33,225 nt of DNA, from assembly GCA_026417075.1 (NCBI GenBank), contig JAOADY010000043.1, positions 1-33,225 on the forward strand, given 5' to 3'. Shown in pieces: positions 5,050-14,682 of this stretch. The translations under genes and the position numbers were made by a program. This DNA comes from Caloramator sp. (GTDB lineage: Bacteria > Bacillota > Clostridia > Clostridiales > Caloramatoraceae). The notes beneath the pieces were generated by a model that saw nothing but the letters and a program-made list of their open reading frames with translations, was not told the origin of the DNA and did not search any database. How positions within the stretch are numbered: the stretch's first letter is position 1; every line of letters starts with the position of its first letter.

Positions 5050-5080
5050 TATGCACCTCAAATTAATATTGAGGTGCATA
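5050..5080 (-). terminator. Rho-independent terminator after the histidine kinase gene
   Basis: A perfect 12-bp inverted repeat, TATGCACCTCAA (5050-5061) with TTGAGGTGCATA (5069-5080), and a 7-base loop. It sits 4 bases past the kinase stop on the minus strand. The T-run that follows (ATATTTTG) is short, so termination may be incomplete. Confidence 0.72.
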
Positions 5081-12055: not shown

Positions 12056-12084
12056 AAAAAAAACAGCAAAAAATGCTGTTTTTT
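12056..12084 (-). terminator. Rho-independent terminator after sigG
   Basis: An 11-bp stem (AAAAAACAGCA at 12058-12068 with TGCTGTTTTTT at 12074-12084), 5-base loop and a following U-run on the minus strand, 3 bases past the sigG stop. Confidence 0.88.
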
Positions 12085-12087
12085 AAT

Positions 12088-12861
12088 TTAAATATATTTT
12101 TTCATATGATTTAAAGCTGATTTTTCAAGCCTCGATACCTGAGCCTGAGAAATTCCTATTTCATCTGCAACTTCCATCTGTGTTTTACCTTCAAAAAATC
12201 TTAATGTCAAAATAAGCTTTTCTCTTTTATTAAGTTTTTGAAGCGCTTGCTTTATAGATATATTTTCAATCCAACTATCATCATGATTTTTAGTATCGCT
12301 TATCTGATCCATAACAAATATAGCATCGCCACCATCATGATAAATGGGTTCAAAAAGCGAAACAGGATCTTGAATTGCATCGAGAGCAAAAACTACCTCT
12401 TCTCGTGGTATTTTTAGTTCTTGTGCAATCTCTGAAACTGTTGGTTCTTTATTATTTTTAGATATCAGGCTATCCCTTACCTGAAGTGCTTTATAAGCTA
12501 TATCCCTTAAAGAGCGGCTAACTCTAATTGAATTATTATCTCTAAGATACCTTCTTATCTCCCCAATTACCATTGGAACTGCATAGGTTGAAAACTTTAC
12601 ATTCTGATTTAAATCAAAATTATCAATAGCCTTTATTAATCCAATACATCCAACCTGAAATAAATCATCTACATTTTCTCCTCTATTGTTAAAACGCTGT
12701 ATCACGCTAAGTACAAGTCTAAGGTTCCCATTAATAAACTTTTCTCTGGCACTTTTATCACCCTGTCTCATCTTTACAATTAACTGTCTCATTTCTTCAT
12801 TAGTTAGAACTGGGAGTTTTGAAGTATTTACACCGCAAATTTCTACTTTATTAGTAATCAT
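12088..12861 (-). CDS. sigG: RNA polymerase sporulation sigma factor sigma-G
   Basis: Late forespore sigma factor, 257 residues. The N-terminal signature NKVEICGVNTSKLPVL is diagnostic for sigma-G. Region 2 (about 35-105) has the FINGNLRLVLSVIQRF and DLFQVGCIGLIKAIDNF segments. Region 4 at the C-terminus has REKLILTLRFFEGKTQMEVA followed by a helix-turn-helix (ISQAQVSRLEKSAL). Start ATG at 12861. The nearest good Shine-Dalgarno (GGGG, 12875-12878) is an unusually long 13 bases away and can be paired in a hairpin. It is third in spoIIGA-sigE-sigG, 109 bases after sigE, with a candidate sigma-F/G promoter in between. Confidence 0.98.
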   Translation of the reverse strand: MITNKVEICGVNTSKLPVLTNEEMRQLIVKMRQGDKSAREKFINGNLRLVLSVIQRFNNRGENVDDLFQVGCIGLIKAIDNFDLNQNVKFSTYAVPMVIGEIRRYLRDNNSIRVSRSLRDIAYKALQVRDSLISKNNKEPTVSEIAQELKIPREEVVFALDAIQDPVSLFEPIYHDGGDAIFVMDQISDTKNHDDSWIENISIKQALQKLNKREKLILTLRFFEGKTQMEVADEIGISQAQVSRLEKSALNHMKKYI

Positions 12862-12872
12862 TAATCAGCTTC

Positions 12873-12916
12873 ATCCCCTTCAGTATAGTTGTATTAAAAT
12901 TATTTCCGAAGGGGAT
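12873..12916 (-). promoter_or_regulatory. Hairpin that can hide the sigG ribosome-binding site
   Basis: The minus-strand RNA has ATCCCCTTC (from 12908-12916) and GAAGGGGAT (from 12873-12881), a perfect 9-bp stem with a 26-base loop. The 3' arm holds the GGGG Shine-Dalgarno of sigG. No U-run follows, so it is not a terminator of sigE. Confidence 0.65.
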
Positions 12917-12927
12917 TTTTTTTATTC
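12898..12927 (-). promoter_or_regulatory. Candidate sigma-F/sigma-G promoter of sigG
   Basis: GAATA (12923-12927) and GGAAATAATT (12898-12907) are separated by 15 bases. They match the sigma-F pattern GYATA-N15-GGNNANANTR at all but one -35 base and one -10 base. Transcription would begin near 12891. The spacer contains the 5' arm of the hairpin described for sigG. Confidence 0.6.
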
Positions 12928-12970: not shown

Positions 12971-13708
12971 CTATAACATTCTGCTGATTTCTCTTTTAAG
13001 CCTCTTTATAATCTTTTTTTCAAGTCTTGATATATATGATTGAGATATACCCAGTATATCTGCAACTTCTTTTTGAGTTTTTTCTCCTCCTCCTCCAAGA
13101 CCAAATCTTAATTCCATAATCTGTTTTTCTCTGCTACTAAGTTTTGCCATTGCACTCCTTAAAAGTTGTTTTTCAACTTCATCTTCAATATAATGATATA
13201 TAAGATCATTATCAGTACCTAAAATATCTGATAATAACAGTTCATTTCCATCCCAATCAACATTTAATGGCTCATCAAAGGATATTTCTCCTCTAACTTT
13301 ACTATTTCGTCTAAGATACATAAGTATTTCATTCTCTATACATTTTGATGCATAAGTTGCAAGTTTAATTTTTTTCATTGGATCAAACGTATTTACTGCT
13401 TTTATAAGCCCTATTGTACCTATTGAAATCAAATCTTCTACGCTTATTCCTGTATTTTCGAATTTTCTTGCGATATATACAACAAGTCTTAAATTTCTCT
13501 CAATAAGAACAGCTCTTATTCCTTCATTTCCTTCTCTCAATTGATCTACCAATTCTTTTTCCTCTTCATTGCTAAGTGGAGGAGGAAGTGCCTCAGCTCC
13601 ACCTATATAGAAAATATCCTGTATACTAAACATCTTCCAATGTATATAATTAATTACCTCTTTTACCTTTTTCTTAACTAAGTCAACTAAATATCTAATA
13701 CGTTTCAA
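12971..13708 (-). CDS. sigE: RNA polymerase sporulation sigma factor sigma-E (pro-form)
   Basis: Mother-cell sigma factor made as an inactive precursor, about 245 residues. The N-terminal pro-peptide (about 34 residues, basic and amphipathic) ends at the [14 protein letters not shown] junction where SpoIIGA is expected to cut. Region 2 has [17 protein letters not shown] and [16 protein letters not shown]; region 4 has [20 protein letters not shown] and the [20 protein letters not shown] at 13717 is also in frame, but it lies inside the Shine-Dalgarno (AGAGGTGG). The TTG at 13708, 8 bases past that SD, gives the expected MKRIR start. It begins next to the spoIIGA stop. Confidence 0.97.
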
Positions 13709-13719
13709 AATTACCACCT

Positions 13720-14613
13720 CTATTTTAAAATTTCTGGATATGCAAGGGCCTGATAATCTCCATATTCTGATATTGGCTTATTATATAGAGCGATTATTGG
13801 TTCCTCAATTGCATTGCATTTATTCTTATATTTTACAATAGCCATATCAGCTCTAATTGCAATTAAAATACCGTTTTCTGTACCTAAGGCTCTATAGGGA
13901 ATAATCCTCATCCTTGATTTAAGCTGTGAAGATATTATTATATTAGTTATTGATTCATAGTCTACATCATCAGCAATACACTTTTTTAATTCCTCGGGAA
14001 ATATGTCGAGCAAAGATTTTTGATAAGCAACTATTACTGGAACATTTGTTACAGGGTCTTTTAAAGTATTTCCTGTATCTATAAGTGCAGTTATGCTGCA
14101 TCTCTTATTATCAAGTATAATTTGTATCTCAACCTTATTTTTTTCAGTTCCATAAAAGTTCTCTAAATAGTCAAAACCTATCTTTACTGAAATCATAGCT
14201 ATTAGTATACCAATAATAATATAATTAGAGGAAATATTAGTTAAAAGAAATGTTCCACTTGCAATATCTATTTCCTTATAAGTTAAATAAAAAATAGCTA
14301 AAATACTTCCTCCAATTATAAATGCTTCAATATAAAAGAGTATGACTATTTTTAGTAAATCTCTTATTTTTCGAGGAGTAAATGCAATAATAAGCATAAT
14401 AACTGACATTAAAAATTTCATTAATAAACAATATAGAAAATGAAAATTGGGATAAAAAATGAATATTACATAAAAAGCTCCAAACATCGATGCTAAAATC
14501 ATCTTCCATTCTTTAGCTTTATATTTACATAGTCTTTTAAGCAAATATATTAAAAGATAATTCATAAAAAAATTTTCAAGAAGTAGTACATCTATATAAA
14601 CAACATCCCCCAT
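13720..14613 (-). CDS. spoIIGA: Sigma-E processing peptidase SpoIIGA
   Basis: A membrane aspartic protease, 297 residues, that cleaves pro-sigma-E after a signal from the forespore. The N-terminal half has about five hydrophobic helices (starting [19 protein letters not shown]). The C-terminal half is a pepsin-like domain with the catalytic [12 protein letters not shown] motif (Asp near residue 178). Start ATG at 14613 follows GAGGGGTGG. It is the first gene of spoIIGA-sigE-sigG and ends at the SD of its substrate gene sigE. Enzyme and substrate are adjacent, as in other spore formers. Confidence 0.97.
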
Positions 14614-14649: not shown

Positions 14650-14682
14650 ATTATAGAACCATACGAATGTAAATTTTGTCAG
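14650..14682 (-). promoter_or_regulatory. Candidate Spo0A-type promoter of the spoIIG operon
   Basis: On the minus strand, CTGACA (14677-14682) and a perfect TATAAT (14650-14655) are separated by 21 bases, too far for an ordinary sigma-A promoter. The spoIIG promoter of B. subtilis also has an over-long spacer and needs Spo0A. ACTGACAAA overlapping the -35 resembles half of a 0A box. Confidence 0.55.

Follow-up and report, generated by a model that had tools for sequence, protein, structure and literature searches.

Sigma-G is autoactivating, and toxicity outside the forespore has been reported for it (PMC5942855), yet its gene is part of the sigE operon. The locus examined here lies in a 33-kb contig (33,225 nt, the whole of which is termed the window) of a low-G+C clostridial genome, Caloramator sp. 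(30% G+C, 2.35 Mb, 167 contigs). The gene order on the minus strand is ftsZ, spoIIGA, sigE, sigG, ylmC/ymxH. The sporulation sigma factor G gene sigG is at 12088–12861 (TIGR02850, 513 bits, cut-off 457), directly 3′ of spoIIGA-sigE on the same strand. The gene spoIIGA, the first of the spoIIG operon, is at 13720–14613 (TIGR02854, 234 bits, cut-off 209.55), and sigE, the source of read-through, is at 12971–13717; both sigE and ylmC/ymxH score above the curated NCBIfam cut-offs. The ftsZ assignment is putative and comes from our own reading. Upstream of spoIIGA, a candidate spoIIG-type promoter can be read at 14650–14682 on the minus strand (CTGACA, 21 nt, TATAAT); it is absent from the output of a promoter scan with standard spacing. 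In its wide spacing the candidate is like PspoIIG of B. subtilis. A terminator scan of the minus strand from 12971 to 12927, i.e. from sigE to sigG, found no intrinsic terminator-like site, as the original prediction had held. Just 3′ of sigG, at 12080–12055, the sequence AACAGC-ATTTTTT-GCTGTT followed by T's resembles an intrinsic terminator by eye; the consensus terminator scan did not list it.

We consider it very probable that the sigG leader acts as a promoter-dependent translational insulator against spoIIGA-sigE read-through, and that RNA from the promoter of sigG itself (PsigG) lacks the inhibitory arm and is translatable. Between sigE and sigG there is a sigma-F/G-type promoter motif, GAATA-N15-GGAAATAATT (12927–12898, minus strand). 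It consists of a −35 element GAATA (12927–12923), whose position is conserved in family members, a 15-nt spacer (12922–12908) and a −10 element GGAAATAATT (12907–12898). The strict sigma-F/G pattern has a single match in the genome, and that match is at sigG. In the window's family the same pattern has only about eight matches not associated with sigG, several of them doubtful, and these are too few for control statistics. By the promoter pattern alone, a sigma-F/G-like promoter was found at one family locus (L383) upstream of a csfB/gin-like gene, whose product looks by eye like a CsfB/Gin-like anti-sigma factor. Judging from the motif, transcription from PsigG would start near 12891. The extended Shine-Dalgarno (SD) sequence AAGGGGATGA is at 12880–12871 on the minus strand, with the core GGGG at 12878–12875. 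The sigG ATG is at 12861, 13 nt after GGGG, and this distance is near that of family members.

The inverted repeat in the sigG leader is confirmed. The segments ATCCCCTTC (12916–12908) and GAAGGGGAT (12881–12873) are perfect complements over 9 bp, as originally described, and in RNA the helix is lengthened inward by a G.U pair (12907/12882) and a G-C pair (12906/12883) to 11 bp, with a 22-nt loop. The 5′ arm is thus AUCCCCUUCGG (12916–12906, minus strand), and the 3′ arm, which contains the SD core GGGG, is CUGAAGGGGAU (12883–12873, minus strand). The upstream arm had been placed wholly within the 15-base spacer. This stands for its 9 nt, the last nine of the spacer, but not for the complete arm, because the added pairs use both G residues of the −10 element. 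Genome-wide, the 44-nt element has a single copy. The window holds four perfect 9-bp inverted repeats that have 5 or more G/C and a loop of at most 60 nt. They represent two loci, against 0.1 expected under a first-order Markov model; the second locus is near 5051–5079.

The spacer:SD duplex in the window has an energy of −19.3 kcal/mol (z −5.6 versus shuffled spacers), and the predicted hairpin fold has −16.7 kcal/mol (z −4.3). The short leader, i.e. RNA from the putative start at 12891, folds at −6.3 kcal/mol (z 0.03) with no stable structure and without the hairpin. With both leaders computed, opening of the SD is predicted to require 14–15 kcal/mol in the read-through RNA versus 1.4 kcal/mol in the PsigG RNA, a contrast that is unaffected by shifting the start by 1–2 nt. 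By folding prediction, then, the long RNA can cover the ribosome binding site (RBS) and the short RNA cannot.

The proposed sequence of events is as follows. Polymerase would pass from spoIIGA-sigE into sigG, with no terminator between them, and yield an mRNA that carries the PsigG spacer. The transcribed spacer (12916–12906) would fold on the sigG SD (12883–12873) and block ribosome binding, and no sigma-G would therefore be made in cells that transcribe spoIIG alone. Sigma-F, and later sigma-G, would initiate at PsigG near 12891 to give an RNA that has no spacer arm and can be translated. About 55 nt lie between the sigE stop codon and the 5′ arm, and ribosomes that finish sigE would therefore presumably leave the hairpin intact. 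We infer that read-through occurs in Caloramator sp., and likewise the size of the translational block and the cell type in which silencing matters. The scope of the device would be read-through mRNA only, i.e. that of the predivisional cell, the mother cell and vegetative leakage. It should be pointed out that sigma-G in the forespore before engulfment cannot be delayed in this way: the sigma-F mRNA made there has no arm and its RBS would be free. The suggestion that sigma-G is kept off before engulfment therefore does not follow. Mutations should be able to separate RNA silencing from the function of the promoter, as the arm extends over no part of it other than the spacer and the GG of the −10 element.

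For comparison, sigG leaders were gathered from the window's family, order and class and from the Bacilli, with Clostridia, Bacillales and Paenibacillus covered, and 269 distinct leaders with a recognisable promoter were kept. When the duplex energy of the SD region is calculated with a sliding 17-nt window (n = 223), the strongest value, −12.7 kcal/mol, falls in the promoter spacer. Elsewhere upstream, energies are mostly −4 to −6 kcal/mol, and there is a minor peak of −7.1 kcal/mol just upstream of the −35 element. Many Clostridiaceae sigG promoters (group f2, e.g. L050, L061 and L064) have a conserved GGTTGTCTTTA directly before a −35 element GTATA. Pairing of the f2 UCUUUAG with CUAAAGG of the SD arm may explain the minor peak. 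In Bacillales relatives (L317–L346) the arm is likewise in the spacer. The Paenibacillus leaders (L169, L179, L182, L185 and others) have a separate design, a near-invariant GGAGATAATGTACA..TTAATGTTTCTCCTTGGGAGGT where GGAGA of the −10 element is complementary to TCTCC beside the SD.

Within the window's family, the arms have changed together. UCCUUCGG/CCGAAGGA and AAUCCC/GGGGUU are found in place of UCCCCUUCGG/CUGAAGGGGA, with both compensatory and wobble changes. In an ungapped alignment anchored on the SD and the promoter, 84% of the cells pair and three of the 11 pairs are altered on both sides; 1 of 500 shuffles reaches the covariation score. The covariation inside this family is modest. 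A second clostridial group (CCUCCGUCC/GGAUGGAGG) also shows 84% pairing, and its score is reached in 2 of 500 shuffles. Compensatory and wobble changes are seen in other clostridial families as well. The Bacillales have arms of unrelated sequence, UUUUUCCCUCC/GGAGGGAAA, in the same place.

These comparisons bear on whether the repeat is a DNA operator, with two half-sites around the −10 element for a dimeric regulator of PsigG. The dyad symmetry about the promoter is what an operator would display. However, the half-site sequences differ completely between families while complementarity is preserved, and about 15% of the helix pairs are wobble pairs (about 12% U.G, with G on the SD side, and 3% G.U), which fits RNA and not DNA symmetry. 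In addition, pairing is mostly gone where a terminator is present (see below). An operator is thus very improbable.

It also has to be weighed whether a pyrimidine-rich spacer might match a purine-rich SD by chance, as a moderate C/T excess is present in the spacers even of leaders that bear a terminator. The shuffle control disfavours chance, and so does a swap test in which the SD of each terminator-less leader is fitted better by its own spacer than by those of other species (mean rank 0.23 vs 0.5, p ~1e-21). In the terminator-bearing group there is no preference for the own spacer (p 0.3). Together with the tree-corrected association with terminator absence described next, this makes an accidental match exceedingly unlikely.

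An arm that serves to silence read-through should be dispensable in lineages where transcription already ends after sigE. Terminators were called independently of the arms; the test is exploratory, since the idea came up during inspection of pairing scores. Predicted intrinsic terminators are found in the sigE–PsigG gap at 48 of 246 sigE-adjacent loci (3% expected by shuffling). Leaders with a terminator have a mean spacer:SD z of −0.74, versus −2.61 in those without one (p 5e-11). The split is found with gaps of at least 100 nt only (p 4e-7) and after clustering at 80% SigE identity (p 0.0013), and all eight terminator definitions agree on it. Phylogenetic independent contrasts, in which terminator state changes about 25 times, give a slope of 1.21 (t 6.0, p 7e-9), and 15 independent sister comparisons give a difference of +1.36 (Wilcoxon p 0.004, but only 0.06 in a plain sign test). 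The predicted difference in SD-opening cost between long and short RNA follows the same division, with a mean of 5.2 kcal/mol in 197 terminator-less sigE-adjacent leaders versus 2.1 kcal/mol in those with a terminator (p 1e-7). These sequence comparisons support the view that sigG would be insulated from spoIIG read-through either by a terminator or by a spacer arm.

Alternation with intrinsic terminators is also what a replacement terminator would show, and perhaps the repeat chiefly ends or protects the spoIIGA-sigE mRNA, as a terminator-like or 3′-stabilising hairpin, with SD occlusion incidental. A separate spoIIGA-sigE transcript is indeed known in C. acetobutylicum (PMC2530871). However, the sense strand has no U tract after the repeat (GGGGAUGAAGC), the loop is 22 nt in the window and often longer elsewhere, and the 3′ arm tracks the SD or the start codon wherever these are located. 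We regard such a role in mRNA ending as improbable, although less so than the other alternatives. A terminator might also act in the antisense direction, as the plus strand reads ATCCCCTTCAG...CCGAAGGGGAT and then TTTTTTTT, i.e. the repeat followed by T8. The terminator scan did not flag this site and the 22-nt loop is long. Moreover, A is found at spacer positions −13/−14 in 83/94% of strongly paired leaders versus 75/85% of terminator-bearing leaders. Leaders without pairing thus conserve the A-run after the −35 element almost as well, which assigns the run to the promoter, and an antisense terminator is hardly credible. On this counter-evidence the antisense terminator, the DNA operator and chance are rejected as readings of the repeat. 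The original reading, that read-through mRNA would hide the RBS and promoter mRNA could not, is strongly supported by modelled folding, arm position, covariation and terminator alternation.

There are exceptions. Pairing is weak or absent (z > −1) in 30 of 198 terminator-less leaders, and it is kept despite a terminator at some loci (L152, L269, L279). The sigG copies that do not adjoin sigE are mostly without pairing (n = 15, mean z −0.8, p 0.003), but this comparison is given little weight, as the expected trend has exceptions in three non-adjacent copies that pair nonetheless (L192, L306, L308). In one genus of Clostridiaceae (g13; L347, L350, L351, L353, L367, L368, L374), several genomes have two to three sigG copies, most of them away from sigE. 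With a search window that included 12 coding bases, the spacer in this genus was found to pair over 9–11 bp with CCUUAUGAU(GU) across the start codon and not with the SD, and the dispersed paralogs retain the helix. Thus the arm in dispersed or non-adjacent copies either guards also against other upstream transcription or was inherited and kept after duplication. At another locus (L177), an acetyltransferase-like gene lies between sigE and sigG; the end of sigE is about 750 nt upstream, and there is a predicted terminator and no spacer:SD pairing. At L389, from a 74%-complete genome (G015), both sigE and sigG look frameshifted beside an intact sigG promoter, and the frameshifts are probably assembly errors.

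Taken across the endospore formers, the findings probably reflect two interchangeable insulators of sigG, a terminator after sigE or an anti-SD arm in the PsigG spacer. In the latter, promoter DNA would double as inhibitory RNA, and promoter choice would remove the inhibitor. The sequence of the arm appears to have been rewritten many times with its position fixed, and the arm to have shifted onto the start codon in one Clostridiaceae genus. The comparative signal backs an old proposal made for B. subtilis, and it yields a rule open to testing genome by genome, namely either a terminator or a spacer arm.

The principle is already known, from the B. subtilis proposal of 1988 and as established for gene e of phage T4. 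According to the Fig. 1D legend of PMC5942855, which cites Masuda 1988, B. subtilis has a hairpin that blocks read-through from spoIIG and that PsigG mRNA cannot form, and the read-through mRNA is reported to be untranslated (PMC2530871). The precedent invoked in the original prediction is therefore on record. The window resembles B. subtilis spoIIIG/sigG in its spoIIGA-sigE-sigG order and in a hairpin that could hide the RBS in read-through mRNA, as proposed there (PMC5942855, PMC2530871); it differs in that the helix is 11 bp in the window, which belongs to a clostridial family, versus the 20 or more bp reported for B. subtilis, and in that the 5′ arm takes up promoter spacer plus the GG of the −10 element. 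In C. difficile, there are promoters upstream of spoIIGA and upstream of sigG (PMC3789822). Northern blots of C. acetobutylicum show spoIIGA-sigE-sigG and sigG transcripts; there sigG apparently shares a transcript with sigE, and prediction yielded no sigma-F promoter (PMC2530871). The present result touches this puzzle, in that the Clostridiaceae leaders examined have the promoter motif and most have the arm. Thirteen Clostridia have been surveyed for promoter spacing and an internal RBS hairpin (PMC5942855), and that paper, in the text consulted, does not treat the read-through hairpin in these species. Searches of the open-access literature found no report of clostridial conservation, of spacer position as a general rule or of terminator alternation, and the comparative generalisation may be new.

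The 'RBS hairpin' of Bacilli sigG is a different element. As described by Mearls 2018 (PMC5942855), it is inside the PsigG mRNA, where it sequesters the sigG RBS and dampens expression 2–4-fold; the short leader of the window, unlike these, has no predicted SD-sequestering hairpin 3′ of the putative start. A well-studied analogy is with T4 gene e (lysozyme) and I-TevI, where long early transcripts sequester the RBS, and late promoters inside the structure drop the 5′ arm so that the RNA is translated (PMC3014915, PMC2988022). As in gene e, PsigG appears to be placed so that its RNA, from the putative start, would lack the 5′ arm. The likeness is one of mechanism and not of homology: the genes and sigma factors are unrelated, and what sets the timing of phage development in T4 would, in the case of sigG, serve the development of the spore.
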